The notes under the pieces are model-generated. The model had not been told where the DNA came from. It searched no databases and was given only the letters and a program-made list of their open reading frames with translations. Both the position numbers and the translations under genes were made by a program. A DNA stretch of 32,272 bases, taken from positions 1-32,272 of the forward strand of contig JADCGK010000170.1 of assembly GCA_020249045.1 (NCBI GenBank). Reading direction: 5' to 3'. The stretch comes from Azospirillum sp. GTDB taxonomy: Bacteria; Pseudomonadota; Alphaproteobacteria; CACIAM-22H2. Shown in pieces: positions 16,733 to 29,912 of this stretch. Position 1 is the first letter of the stretch. Every line of letters starts with the position of its first letter.

Positions 16733-17029
16733 ATGCAGACGATCCGCATTTCCGGGCTCGAGGACGGCCGCCGGGCGCTGGCCGCCGGAGGCCCCGCGCG
16801 CGTGGCCTTGCCGGTGGATGCGGGCGGGGCGGCGTGGGCGGCGGAAATCGCGCGACTGCTTCGCGCCGAATTTCCCGATGCGCTCGCCGGGGTTTGCGCC
16901 GATTGCGGCGACAGTGCGGGTGCCGCGCTGGCGGCCTTGCGCGAAGGTCTGACCGAAATCGGCTTCGACGGCCCGGCCGAAATCGCCGCCAAGCTCGAAG
17001 CGGCGGGGGCGCGGATCGTCCGTGACTGA
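16733..17029 (+). CDS. Uncharacterised 98-residue protein preceding epmA
   Basis: I do not recognise this small protein. It starts MQTIRISGLEDGRRALAAGG, has no signal peptide or membrane segment, and looks like a compact alpha/beta cytoplasmic domain. Its most striking part is 'GVCADCGDSAGAALAALREG' (about 53-72), a Cys-x-x-Cys followed by Gly-Asp and an Ala-rich helix, and it ends 'LEAAGARIVRD'. Codon usage is like its neighbours. The ATG lies where the predicted promoter would start transcription, and no ribosome site is present. Its end overlaps the GTG of epmA by eight bases, so it is translated together with epmA and epmB. A link to EF-P modification is inferred only from this coupling. 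Confidence 0.75.
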   Translation: MQTIRISGLEDGRRALAAGGPARVALPVDAGGAAWAAEIARLLRAEFPDALAGVCADCGDSAGAALAALREGLTEIGFDGPAEIAAKLEAAGARIVRD

Positions 17030-18113
17030 CGCGATCCCCTGGTGGCGGCCCGACCGCTTCGCGCGCAAGCGCGAGAATTTGACCCTGCGCGGCAAGGCGC
17101 TGCGCGCCACGCGCGGCTTTTTCGAGGCGCGCGCGTTCGACGAGGTCGAAACGCCCGCGCTGCAGGTGTCGCCGGGGCTGGAGCCGCATCTGATGGCCTT
17201 CCAGACCGTTCTGCGCGACCCGGGCGTCCGGCTCGCGCGGCGGCTTTACCTCCACACCTCGCCCGAATTCGCGATGAAGAAGCTTCTGGCCGCCGGCGTG
17301 CCGCGCCTGTGGCAACTCGCGCGCTGCTTCCGCAATTCCGAACGTTCGGCCACGCATCACCCCGAGTTCGCGATGCTCGAATGGTACCGGGCGGAGGCCG
17401 ACTACGGCGCGCTGATGCAGGATTGCGAGGCGTTGCTCAAGCACGTCGCGCGCGAATGCGGCGTCGAACGCCTGCGCTGGGGCGGCAAGGCCGCCGATCC
17501 GGCCGCGCCGTTCGAACGCTTGAGCGTCGCCGAAGCCTTCGCGCGCTATTGCGGCTTCGATTTGCTGGCGTGTTGCCCCGACCCGCGCGATCCGGGCGCC
17601 GAGGCCAAAGCGCTCGACCGTCTGGCGGCGGCGTCGCGCGCGCTCAACATGGTGCCGCACGAGGGCGATCGCTGGGACGATTACTTCTTCCGGCTGTTCT
17701 TCGAGCACGTCGAAGGCAAGCTGGGCGTCGGCCGGCCGACGATCCTTTACGACTATCCCGTCCATATGGCGGCACTGTCGCGGCCAAAGCCGGGCGACCC
17801 GCGGCTGGCGGAACGCTTCGAGCTTTACGTTTGCGGCCTCGAACTCGCCAACGCGTTCGGCGAATTGACCGACGCGGCCGAGCAGCGCCGGCGCTTCGAC
17901 GCGGACCAGGACCTGAAATTGAAGCTCTATCGCGAACGCTATCCGATCGACGAGGATTTCATGGCGGCGCTCGAGCACGGCCTGCCGCGCGCGGCCGGCA
18001 TCGCGCTCGGTTTCGACCGGCTGGTGATGCTGCTCGCGGGCGCGGCGCGCATCGACGACGTGATCTGGGCGCCGGTGGCGCTCGCCGGCTTCGAAGACCC
18101 GGGTGCCGTGTGA
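17022..18113 (+). CDS. epmA: EF-P--(R)-beta-lysine ligase
   Basis: EpmA (PoxA/GenX/YjeA) is a class II lysyl-tRNA-synthetase-like enzyme that activates beta-lysine with ATP and joins it to a lysine of elongation factor P. The 363-residue protein lacks the tRNA anticodon-binding domain. Class II motif 2 is seen in 'RLYLHTSPEFAMKKLLAAG' and 'RLWQLARCFRNSERSATHHPEFAMLEWYRAEADY' (about 70-125). 'GLELANAFGELTDA' is the lysine-binding segment and 'GIALGFDRLVMLLAG' is motif 3. The GTG start at 17022 overlaps the preceding gene by eight bases. The epmB start follows at TGATG. The substrate protein EF-P is encoded at 21721-22287 and keeps the target lysine. Confidence 0.95.
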   Translation: MTDAIPWWRPDRFARKRENLTLRGKALRATRGFFEARAFDEVETPALQVSPGLEPHLMAFQTVLRDPGVRLARRLYLHTSPEFAMKKLLAAGVPRLWQLARCFRNSERSATHHPEFAMLEWYRAEADYGALMQDCEALLKHVARECGVERLRWGGKAADPAAPFERLSVAEAFARYCGFDLLACCPDPRDPGAEAKALDRLAAASRALNMVPHEGDRWDDYFFRLFFEHVEGKLGVGRPTILYDYPVHMAALSRPKPGDPRLAERFELYVCGLELANAFGELTDAAEQRRRFDADQDLKLKLYRERYPIDEDFMAALEHGLPRAAGIALGFDRLVMLLAGAARIDDVIWAPVALAGFEDPGAV

Positions 18114-20980: not shown

Positions 20981-21622
20981 ATGGCGGCCGCGAACAAGAC
21001 CCGCCTCTATCTGATCACGCCGCCGGATTTCGATCCGGCGGCGTTTTCGCCCCGGCTCGACGCGGCGTTGGGCGCGGGCGATGTGGCGTGCCTGCAATTG
21101 CGCCTGAAGAACGCCGACGACGCGAAGATCGGCGCCGCCATCGCCGCCCTCAAACCGATCGCGCACCGTCACGACGTGGCGTTCATCCTCAACGACCGGC
21201 CCGATCTCGCCGCCGCGCATGATTGCGACGGCGTGCATATCGGCCAGGACGACACGCCCTATGCCGAGGCGCGCAAGCTGCTGGGCAAGGACCGCATCGT
21301 CGGCGTGACCTGCCACGATTCCAAGGATCTCGCCTTCGCGGCGGCGGAGGCAGGCGCGGACTACGTCGCCTTCGGCGCGTTTTTTCCCTCGACGACCAAG
21401 GAAGTCACGAAGACGCGCGCCCCGGTCGGCTTGATCGAGGAATGGGCGAGCTTCGTCACCGTGCCGTGCGTGGCCATCGGCGGGATCACGGCGGAGAATT
21501 GCGGCCCGCTCGTCAAAGCGGGGGCTGATTTCCTCGCCGTCGCCGGTGCCGTCTGGAACCATCCGCAAGGCCCCGCCGAAGCCGTCAAGGCATTCGGGAA
21601 GGTGCTGAAATCCGGCGTTTAG
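20981..21622 (+). CDS. thiE: Thiamine-phosphate synthase
   Basis: ThiE couples the hydroxymethylpyrimidine and thiazole phosphates into thiamine phosphate. The 213-residue TIM barrel shows '[10 protein letters not shown]' (about 37-46, the QLR motif), '[24 protein letters not shown]' (pyrophosphate and magnesium binding), '[11 protein letters not shown]', '[16 protein letters not shown]' and '[29 protein letters not shown]' (phosphate loop). The ATG at 20981 follows the aldolase stop by five bases. The frame is open far upstream only as a shadow of the aldolase and creatininase genes. No TPP riboswitch can fit here because the gap is too small, and no other thi gene lies in the window. Confidence 0.92.
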
Positions 21623-21628
21623 GGTCGA

Positions 21629-21657
21629 TTGCCTTCCGGGGGGCGGGCTGCTAGGTT
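21629..21657 (+). promoter_or_regulatory. Predicted promoter of efp
   Basis: TTGCCT (21629-21634) and TAGGTT (21652-21657) are 17 bases apart. The segment TAGGTTCCG after it also occurs at the orf98 promoter (16718-16726), which raises confidence. The transcript would start near 21664 and have a leader of about 57 bases. Confidence 0.5.
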
Positions 21658-21674
21658 CCGCCGCGATTTCAGGG

Positions 21675-21695
21675 GGGCGGCCGACGGGGCCGCCC
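21675..21695 (+). terminator. GC-rich hairpin in the thiE-efp gap (terminator of thiE or efp leader element)
   Basis: GGGCGGCC (21675-21682) and GGCCGCCC (21688-21695) make a perfect 8-base stem with a 5-base loop, followed by GTTTCGTT. The short T-run is weak for an intrinsic terminator. Because the predicted efp promoter lies upstream of it, the hairpin would also sit in the efp leader, so attenuation is possible. Confidence 0.45.
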
Positions 21696-21720
21696 GTTTC
21701 GTTCCCGGGACCCGAGACAC

Positions 21721-22287
21721 ATGAAGATCATCGGCAGCGCCATCCGCCAAGGCAACGTCATCGAAGTCGACGGCCGCATCTGGCGCGTCATCAAGCACAA
21801 CATCGTCAGCCCCGGCAAAGGCGGCGCCTTCAACCAGATCGAAGTGCGCGACATCAAGACCGGCACCAAGTCCAACATGAAGTTCCGTTCGGACGAAACC
21901 TGCGAGCTTCTCCGCGTCGAGGAGAAGGTCATGCAGTATCTGTTCAAGGACGGCGACACCTACACGCTGATGGACAAGGAATCCTACGACCAGATGGTCG
22001 TGAACGGCGATCTGTTCGGCGAGCAGGCGGATTTCCTGACCGACAACATGGACGTCTCGGTCGAATTCGTCGACGGGTCGCCCGTCGGCGTCGAACTGCC
22101 GACCACGACGATCTGCACGATCGTCGAGGCCGACGCGGTGGTGAAGGGCCAGACGGCGGCCTCCTCCTACAAGCCCGCGATCCTCGACAACGGCGTGAAG
22201 ATCGGCGTTCCGCCCTTCGTGGCCACGGGCGAGCGCGTCGTCGTCAACATCAAGGAGCGCGCCTACGTCGAGCGCGCCAAGGACTAG
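21721..22287 (+). CDS. efp: Elongation factor P
   Basis: EF-P binds the ribosome next to the P-site tRNA and relieves stalling at consecutive prolines. The 188-residue protein has the three expected beta-barrel domains. Domain I has 'VIKHNIVSPGKGGAFNQIEVRDIKTG', with Lys33 at the loop tip (equivalent to E. coli Lys34). Domain III ends 'TASSYKPAILDNGVKIGVPPFVATGERVVVNIKERAYVERAKD', which includes the efp signature. The Lys33 tip in a PGKG context, with epmA and epmB in the same window, indicates beta-lysylation rather than rhamnosylation (which uses arginine). An inositol monophosphatase gene starts six bases downstream. The ribosome site before the ATG is weak. Confidence 0.97.
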   Translation: MKIIGSAIRQGNVIEVDGRIWRVIKHNIVSPGKGGAFNQIEVRDIKTGTKSNMKFRSDETCELLRVEEKVMQYLFKDGDTYTLMDKESYDQMVVNGDLFGEQADFLTDNMDVSVEFVDGSPVGVELPTTTICTIVEADAVVKGQTAASSYKPAILDNGVKIGVPPFVATGERVVVNIKERAYVERAKD

Positions 22288-22293
22288 GTTCAC

Positions 22294-23121
22294 GTGCCGC
22301 AGGCTTATCGTTCCGCGCTCTACACGGTCATGGAGCGCGCCGTCCGCAAGGCCGGCAAGGGTCTCGCGCGCGATTTCGGCGAGGTCGAACATCTGCAGGT
22401 CTCGGTCAAGGGACCGAGCGACTTCGTGTCGACGGCCGATCTCGCGGCCGAGCGCGCGTTGCGCGCGGAGTTGGAAAAGGCGCGTCCCGGCTATTCGTTT
22501 TTGATGGAGGAGTCGGGCGTATCGCACGGGACCGACCGCGACCACGTCTGGATCGTCGATCCGCTGGACGGAACGACGAATTTCCTGCACTCGATCCCGC
22601 ATTTCGCGATTTCGGTCGCCCTGCAGCATCGCGGCGAGTTGCTCGCGGGCATGATCTACAACCCCGTGCTCGACGAGCTTTACTGGGCCGAGAAGGGCAA
22701 AGGCGCCTATCTCAACGACCGGCGTTTGCGCGTGTCGGGGCGCCGGGATCTCGGCGAATCGCTGATCGGCACGGGCATTCCGTTCCGCGGCCGCGGCAAG
22801 GCCGAGGATCATGCGCATTACCTGAAGCTGCTTGCGGCCACGATGGCGCGCACGGCCGGCGTGCGCCGGCCGGGGGCCGCCGCCCTCGACCTCGCCTATG
22901 TCGCCGCAGGGCGATTCGACGGCTTTTTCGAGATCGGCCTCAATAAGTGGGACGTCGCGGCGGGCATTCTGTTGATCCGCGAGGCCGGTGGCTTCGTCGG
23001 CGACATGGACGGCGACGCCGAAGCGCTGGAAACCGGCAATATCGTCGCCGGGAACGCCAAGCTTTTCGAGCCCTTGCGCGGTTTTCTGCGCGAGCACGGC
23101 GGATCGGGAACGGCCCGTTAA
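22294..23121 (+). CDS. suhB: Inositol monophosphatase family protein (SuhB-like)
   Basis: This 275-residue Mg-dependent phosphatase acts on inositol-1-phosphate and similar sugars; in E. coli SuhB also joins transcription complexes. The metal site is seen in 'FLMEESG' (Glu72/Glu73), 'WIVDPLDGTTNFLHSIPHF' (DPLDGT 89-94) and the second family motif 'KWDVAAGILLIREAGG' (about 218-233). 'GVRRPGAAALDLAYVAAGRFDGFFE' is also typical. The GTG at 22294 is six bases after the efp stop. An ATG at 22330 inside the conserved first helix has no better ribosome site. Together with efp it appears to form a two-gene unit. Whether it is a true SuhB or a HisN-like or CysQ-like paralog is not certain. Confidence 0.9.
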   Translation: MPQAYRSALYTVMERAVRKAGKGLARDFGEVEHLQVSVKGPSDFVSTADLAAERALRAELEKARPGYSFLMEESGVSHGTDRDHVWIVDPLDGTTNFLHSIPHFAISVALQHRGELLAGMIYNPVLDELYWAEKGKGAYLNDRRLRVSGRRDLGESLIGTGIPFRGRGKAEDHAHYLKLLAATMARTAGVRRPGAAALDLAYVAAGRFDGFFEIGLNKWDVAAGILLIREAGGFVGDMDGDAEALETGNIVAGNAKLFEPLRGFLREHGGSGTAR

Positions 23122-23126
23122 CCGGG

Positions 23127-23156
23127 TTGCCCCGGACGCGGGCACAAGGTTAATGT
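23127..23156 (+). promoter_or_regulatory. Possible promoter of the OmpA-MotA-MotB-like cassette
   Basis: TTGCCC (23127-23132) precedes TTAATG (17 bases away) or TAATGT (23151-23156, 18 bases away). The transcript would begin just before the ATG at 23167, which has no Shine-Dalgarno. The -10 match is weak. Confidence 0.35.
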
Positions 23157-23166
23157 CGGTCCCGTC

Positions 23167-24201
23167 ATGACCCGAACGCTTCTCGCCGCCGCCTCCCTCC
23201 TCGTTCTCGCGAGCGCGCCCGTTTTCGCGCAGCAGCAGCTGCGTCAACCTCGCCCGAGCGTTGAAGTTGATTGGACCGTGCTCGACGAATTGGGCGATCT
23301 GCCCATCCAGGCGGTCGCGCCAAGCCCCTTGACCACGTTGCGGCCCCCCGGGCGCCCGGCGCAGCCGCAAACCCTGACGGCGCCGGCGCAGCAGGCTCCC
23401 GCCCCGCAGGCGCAAGCGCGATCGGCGCAAGTCGTTCCGCCGGCCTCCGTCGCGCGCCAAACCGGTGTGCCGCAAGGCACGCGCGTCGGCCCGCAAGCCC
23501 GCGCGCAAACCTCCGACTTCACGCCGCCGCCCGCACCGCCCAGCTTCGTGCCCCCGGCGCCGATGGCCCCGCCCGCGCCGGTCACGTCGGCGCCCGCCCC
23601 GGCATTGCCGCCCCCGCCGCCGCCCGCAGTCATTCAAAGCGCCCCGACGCCGATCGTGCCCCCGGCACCTGCCGCCGCCACAGCGCCGCCCCCGCCGCCA
23701 CCACCCGCGGCCCCGGCGGCCATCCAGGCGATGACGCCGCCGCCCCCACCCCCGCCGGCGGCGCAGATCCCCGCAACGGCGCCGCCGCCCCCGGCGCCCG
23801 CACCTGCGGCAGCACCCGTCGCAGCCCCGACCCCGATTACGCCCCCGCCCCCGCAGCAGGCGGCCGCCCCGGCCGCGCGCGCCGCGGCAACGGGCGCGCT
23901 TGCCTCGCTCGCGTTCGCCGCCGGCGCGGCGGAGTTGACCGATCAGGGCCGTGCGGCACTGGCGCCCGTGCTCGAAGCACTGCGCGGCGACGCCAACGCG
24001 CGTTTGCAGATCCAAGCCTATGCGACGGGCGGCGACGACCAAGGCGGTCAAGCGCGGCGCTTGTCGTTGTCGCGCGCGCTGGCGGTGCGCGGACATCTGA
24101 TCGAGCAGGGCATCGCGGCCACGCGGATGGACGTTCGCGCGTTGGGCCGGACCGGCGATCAGCCCGCCGATCGCGTCGACATTCTGCTCGTCCGGCGCTA
24201 G
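23167..24201 (+). CDS. Secreted poly-proline protein with degenerate OmpA-like C-terminal domain
   Basis: The 344-residue protein has a signal peptide (MTRTLLAAASLLVLASAPVFA, cleavage after 'VFA'). A long Pro/Ala-rich linker follows from about residue 55 to 240, with runs of six, seven, seven and four prolines, and then an OmpA-like domain of about 90 residues ('ASLAFAAGAAELTDQGRAALAPVLEAL' onward). In that domain the usual 'GHTD' that contacts peptidoglycan reads 'AYATGGDD' and the 'NRRVE' reads 'ADRVDI', so peptidoglycan binding may be lost. The linker could span the periplasm. It is 13 bases upstream of the MotA-like gene, which suggests a periplasmic partner of that channel. I do not recognise a named family. 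Confidence 0.82.
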   Translation: MTRTLLAAASLLVLASAPVFAQQQLRQPRPSVEVDWTVLDELGDLPIQAVAPSPLTTLRPPGRPAQPQTLTAPAQQAPAPQAQARSAQVVPPASVARQTGVPQGTRVGPQARAQTSDFTPPPAPPSFVPPAPMAPPAPVTSAPAPALPPPPPPAVIQSAPTPIVPPAPAAATAPPPPPPPAAPAAIQAMTPPPPPPPAAQIPATAPPPPAPAPAAAPVAAPTPITPPPPQQAAAPAARAAATGALASLAFAAGAAELTDQGRAALAPVLEALRGDANARLQIQAYATGGDDQGGQARRLSLSRALAVRGHLIEQGIAATRMDVRALGRTGDQPADRVDILLVRR

Positions 24202-24214
24202 GGGGACCCGCGCC

Positions 24215-25372
24215 GTGGACGCCACGATGACGCGGCCCACGCGCTTTCTGATCCGCACGCTGCTGTTTCTCGTGGCGGTGGCGGGACTCGTGGCGGCGTT
24301 GTTCGACGGCATCGCCGACGCCTTCTCCCACCATATGGCGCTCAACGGCCTGATCCTGGGCGTGCTGACGCTCGGGATCCTCTTCAATCTGCGCCAGATT
24401 TTCAGCCTCAACCGCGAAATCGATTGGATCGACACGTTCCGCGCGGGCAAGCCCGCTTTGTCGGGCGAAGGCGCCAAGCTGCTGGCGCCGATGGTCAAGA
24501 TGCTCGGCGAGCGGACGGGCAAGTTCCAACTCTCCCCCATCGCCACGCGCTCGCTTCTCGATTCGATCGCCTCGCGGCTCGACGAAAGCCGCGACCTGTC
24601 GCGCTATCTGGTCGGGTTGCTGATCTTTCTCGGCCTGATGGGCACGTTCTGGGGCCTGTTGCAGACCGTCTCGGCCGTCGGCGGGGTGATCGGCACGTTG
24701 TCGGCGGCGACCGACACCGATTCGTTGTTCCGGGAATTGCAGGCAGGTCTCCAGGCGCCGCTGGGCGGCATGGGGACGGCCTTCGGCACGTCGCTGTTCG
24801 GCCTTGCGGGATCGATAGTGCTGGGGTTCTGCGATCTGCAGGCGGGCCAAGCGCAGAACCGCTTCTACAACGATCTCGAGGAATGGCTGTCGGCGCAAAC
24901 CCGCCTGTCGTCGGGCGCGCTGGGTGCCGGCGACGGCGACGCGACCGTCCCGGCCTATATCCAGGCGCTGCTGGAAACGACGGCCGACAACCTCGAATCC
25001 CTGCAGCGCACCATGGCGCGCGGCGAGGAAAGCCGCGCCCAAGGCGCCCAAGCCAACGCCGCCCTCGTCGACAAGCTGGGCGCGCTCGCCGATCAGATGA
25101 AGACGGAGCAGCAATTGCTGCTCAAACTCGCCGAAGGCCAGGTGGAATTGCGCGCGGTGCTGACGCGGCTGGCCGACGTGCCGCGCGGCGGCGGTTCCGG
25201 CGGCGGCATCGACGACGCGACGCGGGCGCATATCCGCAACATGGATCTGGCGCTGACCCGGTTGGTCGAGGAGACCGGCACCGGCCGCCTGCAGATGACC
25301 CAGGATCTGCGCAACGAAATCCGCCTGCTGGCGCGCACGATCGCCAATCTCGCCGAGGAGCCGCGCGCCTGA
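24215..25372 (+). CDS. MotA/TolQ/ExbB-family proton channel protein
   Basis: The 385-residue inner-membrane protein has four hydrophobic segments: about 11-31, 42-60, 131-155 and 180-207. The third reads 'YLVGLLIFLGLMGTFWGLLQTV' and the fourth 'LGGMGTAFGTSLFGLAGSIVLG', the paired helices that form the ion path in MotA, TolQ and ExbB. Residues 210-385 are predicted by eye to be a long coiled-coil cytoplasmic tail, unusual for MotA and ExbB. The GTG start has AGGGGGA about nine bases upstream; an ATG four codons on is the alternative. The stop overlaps the MotB-like start (TGATG), so the two subunits are translated together. It is not flagellar MotA, as the length and tail differ. Confidence 0.88.
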   Translation: MDATMTRPTRFLIRTLLFLVAVAGLVAALFDGIADAFSHHMALNGLILGVLTLGILFNLRQIFSLNREIDWIDTFRAGKPALSGEGAKLLAPMVKMLGERTGKFQLSPIATRSLLDSIASRLDESRDLSRYLVGLLIFLGLMGTFWGLLQTVSAVGGVIGTLSAATDTDSLFRELQAGLQAPLGGMGTAFGTSLFGLAGSIVLGFCDLQAGQAQNRFYNDLEEWLSAQTRLSSGALGAGDGDATVPAYIQALLETTADNLESLQRTMARGEESRAQGAQANAALVDKLGALADQMKTEQQLLLKLAEGQVELRAVLTRLADVPRGGGSGGGIDDATRAHIRNMDLALTRLVEETGTGRLQMTQDLRNEIRLLARTIANLAEEPRA

Positions 25373-26502
25373 TGCGCGGGAGCGGCCGCCGCACGGTGCG
25401 AACGGTCGACGTCTGGCCCGGCTTCGTCGACGCGCTGGCCACTCTCGTCATCGCCATCGTTTTCGTGGTGATGGTGTTCGCGGTCTTCCAGTTCCATCTC
25501 AAGGACGTCATCGCCGGCCGCGACGACCAGCTCGCGCGCGCGTCCACCCAGCTCGCGCAATTGGCCGAATCCCTGGCCCTGGAGCGGCGCACGGGCGAGG
25601 ATCTGCGCGGACGGCTGGACCGGCTGCAGGCCGAATTGTCGGCGACGCTGGGCGAGCGCGACCGGGCGACGGGCGAGCTGGGTGCGGCGCGCGCGCTGAC
25701 CCGCGCGCAGGCCGAACAGCTCGAAATCGCCAATCGCGCCATCGCCGCCGACCGCGAAAAGATCGAAATGCAGCTGCGCGAACTCGAAGCGCTGGCGGCG
25801 TTGCGCCAAACCCTCGAACGCCGGGCGGCGGCGGCCGAAGAGGCCGCCGGTGCCGAGCGCCGGCTGTCGGCCGAGGCGCAGGCGCAAGTGGCGTTGCTCA
25901 ACCGCCAGACGGCCGAGTTGCGCGAGCAGCTGCGCCGGTTGGAAAACATCATGTCCGACTCCGAACGCCGGACGGCCGAACAGCAGGCGCAGATCGCGGA
26001 TTTGGGCCGTCGGCTCAACCTGGCTTTGGCGAGCCGGGTCGAGGAACTCGCGCGCTTCCGCTCCGAATTCTACGGCCGCTTGCGCCAGGCGCTGGGCGAG
26101 CGCGCCGATCTGCGCGTGGTCGGCGACCGGTTCGTGTTCCAATCCGAGATCCTTTTCCCGGCCGGCGCCGCGACGATCGAGTTGGAGGGCGGCCGCCAGT
26201 TGCAGCGTTTGGCCGACGTGATCCGCGAACTCGCCCCGCGCATCCCGCGCGAGGTCGATTGGGTCGTCCAAGTGACCGGCCACACCGACCGCCGTCCCAT
26301 CGCCACGCGCGAGTTCCCGTCGAATTGGGAGCTTTCGACCGCCCGCGCGCTGTCGGTCGTGCGCTTCCTGATGGCCAACGGCGTGCCCGCCGAGCGGCTG
26401 CAGGCCGCGGGCATGGCCGAATTCCAGCCGATTGACGAGCGCGACGACGAGATCGGCTGGCGGCGCAATCGGCGCATCGAAATCCGATTTACCAACCGCT
26501 AG
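25372..26502 (+). CDS. MotB-like protein with coiled coil and OmpA peptidoglycan-binding domain
   Basis: The 376-residue partner of the channel subunit has one transmembrane helix (about 18-43) that carries Asp20 in 'VWPGFVDALATLVIAIVF', the position of the proton-carrying aspartate in MotB, TolR and ExbD. A long coiled coil spans about 45-225 with Glu/Gln/Arg heptads. The C-terminal OmpA-like domain (about 255-376) keeps 'VTGHTDRRPI' and 'NWELSTARALSVVRFL', and the terminal 'WRRNRRIEIRF', so peptidoglycan anchoring is expected. Orientation would be cytoplasmic N-terminus and periplasmic OmpA domain. It forms a stator-like pair with the preceding gene. The flagellar or Tol system is not encoded nearby, so the work it powers is unknown. 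Confidence 0.9.
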   Translation: MRGSGRRTVRTVDVWPGFVDALATLVIAIVFVVMVFAVFQFHLKDVIAGRDDQLARASTQLAQLAESLALERRTGEDLRGRLDRLQAELSATLGERDRATGELGAARALTRAQAEQLEIANRAIAADREKIEMQLRELEALAALRQTLERRAAAAEEAAGAERRLSAEAQAQVALLNRQTAELREQLRRLENIMSDSERRTAEQQAQIADLGRRLNLALASRVEELARFRSEFYGRLRQALGERADLRVVGDRFVFQSEILFPAGAATIELEGGRQLQRLADVIRELAPRIPREVDWVVQVTGHTDRRPIATREFPSNWELSTARALSVVRFLMANGVPAERLQAAGMAEFQPIDERDDEIGWRRNRRIEIRFTNR

Positions 26503-26509
26503 ACGTGCC

Positions 26510-26947
26510 ATGCGCGCCCTCGCGCTCGCCGCGCTGATGATCGTCGCTTCGCCGGTTCTGGCGGACGAAGCGGCGCTCGAAGCGGCGATGGCGGCGGCGC
26601 GGCGCGAAGCGGGACTGGCGGTCGCGGCGCCCGATGCGCGGCTTGCGCGCGCCGCGCGCGCGATCGCCGAGGACAACGCGGCGCGCGGCACGCTGGACCA
26701 CACGGACGCGAATGGCGGCACGTTGCGCGGCCGGACGCTGGCCGCAGGCTACGTCTTCCGCTTCGTCGCCGAAAACCTGGCCGCGGGCACGCCGGAGGGC
26801 GCGCGCGTGGCGTCGCTCTGGCTGGATTCGCCCGCGCACCGGGCGAACATGCTGTCGGTCGAGGCGGCGCATTACGGCCTCGCGCGCGTGCGCGGCGCGG
26901 ACGGGCGCGATTACTGGGCGGCGGTGTTCGCCGCCCCGCTACGTTGA
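26510..26947 (+). CDS. Secreted CAP (SCP/TAPS) domain protein
   Basis: The 145-residue protein has a signal peptide (MRALALAALMIVASPVLA) and one CAP domain. Conserved family features are 'TLDHTDANGGTLRGRTLAAGY' with the first histidine, 'VAENLAAG' with the glutamate, and 'SLWLDSPAHRANMLSVEAAHYGLARV', with the second histidine in the 'S-x-x-H-R-x-N-M' motif. Bacterial CAP proteins are mostly of unknown activity. Its start is eight bases after the MotB-like gene, so it probably belongs to the envelope cassette. Its stop overlaps the converging CoA-transferase gene by nine bases. The ATG at 26510 is chosen because it begins the signal peptide. Confidence 0.85.
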   Translation: MRALALAALMIVASPVLADEAALEAAMAAARREAGLAVAAPDARLARAARAIAEDNAARGTLDHTDANGGTLRGRTLAAGYVFRFVAENLAAGTPEGARVASLWLDSPAHRANMLSVEAAHYGLARVRGADGRDYWAAVFAAPLR

Positions 26948-29042: not shown

Positions 29043-29861
29043 TTACCGGACGATGCCGAGGATGAGCTGCGGCTGCTGGTTGGCGACGGACAATTGCTGG
29101 ACGGCGAGCTGCTGTTGCACTTGGCGCGACTGGGTCACCGCCGAAGCCTTGCCGATGTCCGCGTCGATGACGGCGCCCAAGCCCTGGGTCGTCGAATCGA
29201 CGATCGCGTTGAGCAGATTCGCCTGCAGACGCAGCGTGCGGGAGTCCGCGGCGTTCCCGCCGAGCGCGGCCGAAACGGCCGAGCGGAACGTGGTCAACGA
29301 CGTGAGCGCCGCCGTCGCCGCCGTGGCGGAGGACACGGACGTGGCCCCGAACGCGGTGAACGCGGTGCTGACCGACGAGCGCGAGGCGACGGCGATGGTC
29401 GCGGCCGACGTGTCGGCCAGGAACGTGCGCGCGGCGGAGTTGTTGGACAGAAGGTTGACGCCGTTGTAGTTCGCCTGCGCGATGAAGATCGAAATCTGGT
29501 TGGTCATCGCGCCGAAATCCGCGGCGTAGATCGTGCGCTGATCGTTGCCGATGGACCCGTCGGCGAGCTGCGAGATTTTGGCCTGCAGATTGCCGACGAT
29601 GTTCGAGATGCCCGTCAGCGCCGCTTCCGTGACGGCGCCCAAGCCGGTGCCGTTGGTCAGCGAATTGCTGACGGCCGTGAAGGCCTGAAGATTTCCGCGG
29701 ATGCCTTGGGCGACGGTGAAGGTCGAAGCGTCGTCCATCGCGTCGGCCACGCGATAGCCGGTTTGCACCTGCTTCTGGGAAGTCTGAAGCTGCTGCCCGA
29801 CGCCGCGCAAGGCGCCCATGGCCGCCATCGCGCCGATGTTGGTATTGATCGAGTTGGACAT
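29043..29861 (-). CDS. Flagellin, short form
   Basis: Flagellin is exported by the flagellar type III apparatus and polymerises into the filament. The 272-residue protein has the conserved D0/D1 parts only: N-terminal 'SINTNIGAMAAMGALRGV' and 'VQTGYRVADAMDDASTFTVAQGIRG', and C-terminal 'QSRQVQQQLAVQQLSVANQQ'. It has no variable D2/D3 outer domain, as in several alphaproteobacteria. The middle is rich in Ala, Ser and Thr. The ATG at 29861 is chosen because GGAGAG precedes it and because the sigma-54 promoter would start transcription near 29901; upstream starts would be outside the transcript. No other flagellar gene lies in the window. A strong terminator follows. Confidence 0.93.
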   Translation of the reverse strand: MSNSINTNIGAMAAMGALRGVGQQLQTSQKQVQTGYRVADAMDDASTFTVAQGIRGNLQAFTAVSNSLTNGTGLGAVTEAALTGISNIVGNLQAKISQLADGSIGNDQRTIYAADFGAMTNQISIFIAQANYNGVNLLSNNSAARTFLADTSAATIAVASRSSVSTAFTAFGATSVSSATAATAALTSLTTFRSAVSAALGGNAADSRTLRLQANLLNAIVDSTTQGLGAVIDADIGKASAVTQSRQVQQQLAVQQLSVANQQPQLILGIVR

Positions 29862-29912
29862 CGCACTCTCCATCGTCAGCGGCGCCTCGTGGGGCCCGAT
29901 GGACAGCACTTC

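Follow-up and report, generated by a model that had tools for sequence, protein, structure and literature searches.

A putative peptidoglycan-anchored ion motor with a ZorA-like channel subunit, encoded in a conserved efp gene block of Alphaproteobacteria

Only few 5:2 ion-driven motors have a known job, namely those of the flagellum, Tol, Ton, gliding and Zorya, and a handful more. For ZorAB, defence was reported to require ion flow, peptidoglycan binding and the cytoplasmic tail (PMC11890865), and a 2025 survey of MotAB relatives described non-flagellar B subunits without OmpA homology (PMC12505986). Here, a stretch of DNA from Azospirillum sp. (contig JADCGK010000170.1, assembly GCA_020249045.1; 32,272 nt, hereafter the window) was analysed, in which the gene of a secreted, proline-rich protein (termed P) precedes a gene pair coding for a channel subunit (A) and a MotB-like subunit (B; Table 1). 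By contrast with the subunits described in the 2025 survey, this B family has an OmpA domain. The traits of the 5:2 motor superfamily are present, i.e., a membrane aspartate in B and an A-subunit fold with conserved Thr/Ser residues, and A-B very probably belongs to the ion-driven motor class. We consider it reasonably likely that P, A and B constitute a peptidoglycan-anchored A5B2 ion-driven motor with P as partner and a role in envelope constriction or cell separation; for an envelope or division role taken by itself, the chances appear about even. A first-pass annotation of the window had described P, A, B and a CAP-domain protein as four consecutive genes, including a pair of ion-motor type that lies outside flagellar, Tol, Exb or Zorya loci. 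Open reading frames (ORFs), Pfam matches and AlphaFold2 (AF2) models established that these genes are real and of the named kinds, and the location of the pair outside such loci was borne out as well.

Subunit B is a full-length member of the family NF006543 (PRK09039; 375.6 bits versus a curated cut-off of 305, residues 6–376), whose name, “peptidoglycan -binding protein,” comes without a function and whose definition does not extend to the partner A, P and the efp block. The membrane aspartate, Asp20, is situated within the motif WPGFVDxL of the transmembrane helix and is retained as Asp in all 107 B proteins with a readable N-terminus, in agreement with the conservation that the first-pass annotation had asked for. 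Within the total of 108 B proteins, 100 fit the first pattern, seven read WPGFVDG or WPAFVDL and one is truncated. The AF2 model of B consists of a single helix (residues 17–204) and the OmpA domain. Asp306 and Arg325 of this domain are invariant in the B alignment and are presumably the peptidoglycan-binding pair known from OmpA-like domains. Foldseek placed the periplasmic domain nearest to MotS, PomB and MotB (E 1.7e-11), a fold search with B returned only OmpA/MotB domains, and no TolR/ExbD domain (PF02472) was found in B up to E 1.

The Pfam model MotA_ExbB (PF01618) scores 11.6 bits on subunit A, under its cut-off of 22.9. A PF01618 search of the own genome missed the protein, which was recovered only by family-specific models, and no NCBIfam MotA match was obtained. 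Two start codons, GTG at 24215 and ATG at 24227, are equally likely. The AF2 model, generated with 42 homologues (mean pLDDT 81), exhibits helices at residues 9–28, 41–76, 108–164, 168–228, 247–321 and 334–380, so that A is predicted to comprise four membrane helices and a tail made of two helical parts; the loop linking membrane helices 2 and 3 is short. The long tail noted in the first-pass annotation is therefore retained, though with about 157 residues (229–385) instead of about 175; it is absent or short in nine of 43 aligned homologues, and its action on a cytoplasmic partner, as suggested in that annotation, is no more than a possibility. Thr144 and Ser193 are invariant among the 43 sequences, and the motifs GLLGTFWGLL and GMGTAFSSSLFGL are conserved in the alignment. 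At the sequence level, A is nearest to the ZorA family: the match to PADLOC ZorA3 reaches 1.9e-15, and hhalign returned 97.0% for a ZorA3 protein, 39% for E. coli TolQ and 11% for E. coli MotA. In the comparison of folds, VIA-align Z scores, which were obtained on Foldseek's top chains and are middling for a helical protein, amounted to 12.0 for TolQ (rmsd 3.2, 181 aligned), 11.6 for ExbB, 11.1 for ZorA and 8.9 for MotA. The fold list is headed by the MotA/TolQ/ExbB superfamily, and ZorA shows the highest identity (18%) among its top rows.

The A model matched 189 of 289 alphaproteobacterial genomes, nearly always in a single copy, and 161 of the 235 genomes with a completeness of at least 90%. 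Several of the positive genomes are smaller than 1 Mb (0.7–1.0 Mb). Outside the class, strong matches were limited to five genomes of a phylum-wide sample (G363, G425, G459, G440 and G563). The remaining out-of-class matches were weak, the strongest being proteins of about 700–1100 aa, and the three that were checked proved to be ZorA3. Three A-B pairs outside the class (L160, L161 and L162) lack the efp block and are possible transfers or misplaced genomes. The presence of A is independent of FliG: both were found in 45 genomes, A without FliG in 32 (out of 77 with A), FliG only in 24 and neither in 14 (Fisher p 0.69). The window's genome encodes a separate flagellar MotA on contig C139, which shares 40% identity with its E. 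coli counterpart, and its only TIGR02796 tolQ match is a TolQ on contig C112. A is consequently a third A-type subunit in the same cell, and orthology of the pair to MotAB, TolQR or ExbBD, which would have contradicted the first-pass annotation, does not apply. Five FliG_C matches were also identified in this genome (contigs C2, C15, C61, C162 and C188); together with the nearby flagellin, they point either to more than one flagellar system or to redundancy in the assembly.

The gene order is kept throughout the class. In 107 of the 110 loci examined, A and B are direct neighbours with the same orientation, so that their pairing is not due to chance. In a set of 80 named loci, mainly from Rhodospirillales and Acetobacteraceae, B was present in 79 and an inositol monophosphatase (IMP) in 61; efp was located ahead of A in 55, and 53 had a P-like match, many of the loci without these genes being cut by contig ends. 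The order efp-IMP-P-A-B was found in most of 20 additional genomes that represent various families of Alphaproteobacteria, and efp, IMP and P are the recurrent neighbours of A-B across loci. Genes of these relatives were called by homology, as greedy calling based on third-position GC content (GC3) misassigned long antisense ORFs in GC-rich DNA. The CAP gene occurs in two of the 80 named loci, in most same-genus loci and in none beyond near kin, and on this distribution it was rejected as a functional member of the block. The conserved unit is efp-IMP-P-A-B with CAP outside. Of the four-gene cassette proposed initially, P, A and B are thus upheld, whereas CAP is not and the block begins further upstream, at efp and IMP.

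The block is often located in the vicinity of tol-pal. Where A and tolQ share a contig, they lie 12–28 kb apart in 26 of 32 genomes, tolQ being nearly always upstream of A and divergent on the opposite strand. In three single-contig genomes (G027, G046 and G084), the distances are 19, 24 and 22 kb, and in two same-genus genomes 21 and about 20 kb. G123, G058, G040 and G072 deviate from this pattern. These distances derive from hand-transcribed positions, three A positions being approximate. A and tolQ are on different contigs in 29 genomes, and fragmented assemblies favour short distances. In the window, the 24 kb preceding A contain no tolQ, and the sole match of the genome is located on another contig.

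P is predicted to carry a signal peptide with a consensus cleavage site between VFA and QQ. The short motif right behind it, expressed as the pattern V-x-V-D-x-S-V-L-D, occurs in 34 of 52 P proteins versus 0.4 expected from shuffled sequences, an excess somewhat flattered by a pattern that was drawn up after viewing the sequences. P of the window contains 19 overlapping PPP, and at least one PPP is found in 48 of 67 homologous P ORFs. An upstream ORF sharing the C-terminal domain of P is present in 65 of the 67 loci with a candidate ORF. In 65 aligned homologues of this OmpA-like domain, the Arg of LSLSRA is retained and the Asp of HTD is replaced (AYAxG); therefore, canonical diaminopimelate binding by P appears doubtful. 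Periplasmic proteins such as TolB have short disordered N-terminal epitopes, and by analogy with these we propose that the N-terminal peptide of P may serve for docking to the motor or to a partner in the outer membrane. The efp gene is situated two genes upstream of this poly-proline-rich protein (21721–24201). EF-P relieves stalling at PPP, and the efp-P linkage may thus be functional; a regulatory meaning was weighed, and the linkage is given here as an observation only. Agrobacterium efp (chvH) mutants were found to be sensitive to detergent and carbenicillin (PMC4285021). A 363-aa class II tRNA-synthetase-like protein (PF00152), encoded at 17022–18113 upstream of fba-thiE-efp, is possibly the EF-P modification enzyme EpmA.

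With regard to stoichiometry, ion, rotation, partner and function, we infer the following scheme. Five A subunits would form a membrane ring enclosing the transmembrane helices of two B subunits. Ions, most likely protons, would cross between Asp20 of B and a Thr/Ser ring of A, contributed by Thr144 and the Ser/Thr of the third/fourth helix, and their passage would make ring and axle rotate against one another. The OmpA-type domain of B, situated at the tip of the coiled coil of about 160 residues, would tie the subunit to the peptidoglycan; the coiled coil could measure about 24 nm if fully helical (1.5 Å per residue). As B would be held to the peptidoglycan, torque would arise on the bundle of cytoplasmic A tails or appear as wall tension. 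P would act as the periplasmic partner, whose mature N-terminal peptide docks on the motor or another protein, while the proline-rich tether and the degenerate OmpA domain would extend toward the wall or the outer membrane. The machine would likely help to constrict the envelope or to separate cells at poles and septa, in a Tol-Pal-like rather than flagellum-like manner. In this scheme, P-A-B would date back to the ancestor of Alphaproteobacteria or at least be of great age within the class, and it would be distinct from the flagellar stator as well as from Tol, Ton and Zorya.

Data on probable orthologues of A and B come from Komagataeibacter hansenii, an aflagellate member of the Acetobacteraceae. 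According to the published accounts, its motA (348 aa, four predicted transmembrane helices) adjoins motB (321 aa, OmpA C-terminus), and MotB is 46–48% identical over 95–99% to proteins of Rhodospirillum centenum, Magnetospirillum and Rhizobium (PMC6570709). This level of identity is also found within the B alignment of the present family. Overexpression of motA/motB resulted in elongated, chained cells with septa and in faster colony spreading (PMC6570709, PMC6315621), and MotA-GFP and MotB-GFP were polar, or bipolar in long cells (PMC6570709). The genes had no effect in E. coli (PMC6570709, PMC6315621). Disruption mutants were viable and their cellulose was denser (PMC7347698). The genes are named and interpreted there as motility genes, and in the portions of these accounts that were consulted, the ZorA kinship, P, the gene block and a class-wide survey do not appear (PMC6570709, PMC6315621). 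Literature searches by operon content yielded no description of efp-IMP-P-A-B; the Komagataeibacter papers surfaced via the names motA/motB. The first-pass annotation was hence right in seeing no known machine at this locus but overstated its novelty, as B belongs to NF006543 and the probable orthologues have been overexpressed or disrupted (PMC6570709, PMC6315621, PMC7347698).

Several points weigh against a P-A-B motor with an envelope role. A hundred of the 289 genomes are devoid of A, which is therefore not essential to the class, and P was undetected by the method used in about 40% of loci. The model of A resembles known A subunits only moderately (best Foldseek E 2.8e-3) and, as a monomer, gives no stoichiometry. 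For K. hansenii, the orthology rests on the BLAST table of the paper (PMC6570709), and the morphology and localisation data stem from overexpression. In addition, the closeness to tol-pal may result from a conserved housekeeping region instead of a shared function.

Among the alternatives, the one that survives best, itself rather unlikely, is a second Tol- or Ton-like energiser which would pull an outer-membrane partner via P or another transducer and have no cytoplasmic rotary output. A-B has in common with TolQR and ExbBD the fold of the A subunit, TolQ and ExbB being nearest by Z score, the affiliation with the 5:2 class driven by the proton motive force and the location near tol-pal; the composition of P, with a signal peptide, a short conserved N-terminal peptide, a proline-rich tether and a C-terminal domain, likewise fits this explanation. 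However, B exhibits an OmpA domain and not that of TolR/ExbD, and a distinct TolQ exists in the genome. Furthermore, as cleavage of the P signal peptide is predicted at a consensus site, P is not clearly membrane-anchored like TonB or TolA, and no TonB-dependent receptor was found among the neighbours examined.

An orphan ZorAB serving in Zorya-like phage defence, with the cytoplasmic tail triggering an effector, is improbable. ZorAB and A-B share the membrane Asp, an OmpA-type peptidoglycan-binding B and a helical cytoplasmic tail on A (PMC11890865), and ZorA3 proteins are the nearest sequence relatives of A. In a tree of A, MotA, TolQ/ExbB and ZorA3, A and ZorA were grouped at 92/86 (not starred); three other placements of A also survive approximately unbiased (AU) tests, namely a clade of its own (p 0.40), a grouping with MotA (p 0.26) and one with Tol/Exb (p 0.36), and the position of ZorA3 inside A is probably a consequence of long-branch attraction. 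On the other hand, the NCBIfam ZorA models remain far under their cut-offs on A (NF033915, 13.6 bits versus 100; NF041792, 10.7 versus 700), the ZorA3 proteins encountered in this analysis comprise 700–960 aa in total and the A tail is comparatively short here and shorter or missing in some homologues. Unlike in ZorAB, B contains a long periplasmic coiled coil, and no ZorC, ZorD or ZorE was found among the genes examined around A-B. Moreover, defence systems are patchy, whereas A is single-copy, class-wide, linked to one housekeeping block and present even in reduced genomes.

The weakest and largely refuted explanation, an accessory flagellar stator of the MotAB/PomAB type giving torque to the flagellar rotor, is highly improbable: the four predicted membrane helices of A, the transmembrane Asp and MotB/PomB-like OmpA domain of B and a flagellin gene 2 kb off are in its favour, but A is below the Pfam MotA_ExbB cut-off and far nearer to ZorA than to MotA, does not follow FliG, coexists with a true MotA, has a short loop at the site of the MotA torque interface (helices 2–3) and is probably kept as an orthologue in aflagellate Komagataeibacter (PMC6570709).

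In the window, efp, IMP, P, A, B and CAP are separated by 6, 45, 13, −1 and 7 bp, the stop codon of A and the start codon of B sharing one base (TGATG). Given these gaps, the six genes are likely to form one operon. Other neighbours of the block identified by the Pfam scan are a CoA-transferase, an enoyl-CoA hydratase and the aforementioned flagellin (29043–29909). Antisense ORFs of 975 aa over the block (e.g., 21619–24546, minus strand) were discarded as composition artefacts of GC-rich DNA.

Table 1. Features of the efp-IMP-P-A-B block and the adjacent CAP gene. All coordinates in table and text are positions in the 32,272-nt stretch.
Feature	Position	Strand	Basis
efp, elongation factor P, opens the conserved block	21721..22287	+	Pfam EFP_N/EFP/Elong-fact-P_C
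IMP family protein, second in the conserved block	22294..23121	+	PF00459 3.5e-66
P, secreted, Pro-rich, degenerate OmpA-like C-terminal domain	23167..24201	+	OmpA PF00691 2.3e-9
P, short motif SVEVDWTVLDEL right behind the predicted signal peptide	23257..23292	+	in 34 of 52 P proteins
P, Pro-rich linker, variable stretch after the motif	23329..23871	+	sequence itself
P, degenerate OmpA-like domain, residues 250–330	23914..24156	+	alignment of 65 homologues
A, 4-TM (transmembrane) channel subunit of MotA/TolQ/ExbB fold	24215..25372	+	AF2 model, profile matches
A, Thr144, expected pore residue, within invariant GxxGTFxGL, third membrane helix	24644..24646	+	
A, C-terminal tail, residues 229–385 (~157), helical, presumed cytoplasmic	24899..25369	+	AF2 helices 247–321, 334–380
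B, MotB-like, one TM helix, long coiled coil, OmpA/MotB-type peptidoglycan-binding domain	25372..26502	+	
B, Asp20, membrane aspartate, in WPGFVDALATLVIAIVFVVMVF	25429..25431	+	
B, periplasmic helix/coiled coil, ~160 residues	25504..25983	+	AF2 helix 17–204, pLDDT >90 over most
B, OmpA-like peptidoglycan-binding domain	26152..26472	+	PF00691 1.5e-15
CAP-domain secreted protein	26510..26947	+	PF00188 5.1e-15

A broader proposal, which we put forward tentatively and with the balance somewhat against it, is that P-A-B represents an unrecognised envelope machine core to most Alphaproteobacteria, i.e., a ZorA-like motor, anchored to peptidoglycan by a long coiled coil, that P would couple to constriction of the envelope or separation of cells in parallel to Tol-Pal; Zorya would have derived from this motor or co-originated with it. 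A-B would provide a housekeeping relative for testing the origin of Zorya, and the short conserved peptide of P a handle for finding what the motor drives. The family is annotated as “MotA” or “peptidoglycan-binding protein.” If the interpretation of P-A-B as an envelope motor is true, such names would be a source of wrong motility annotations in aflagellate bacteria, and an apparently vertically inherited motor in about two-thirds of the sampled alphaproteobacterial genomes would have been largely overlooked in research on the cell envelope.

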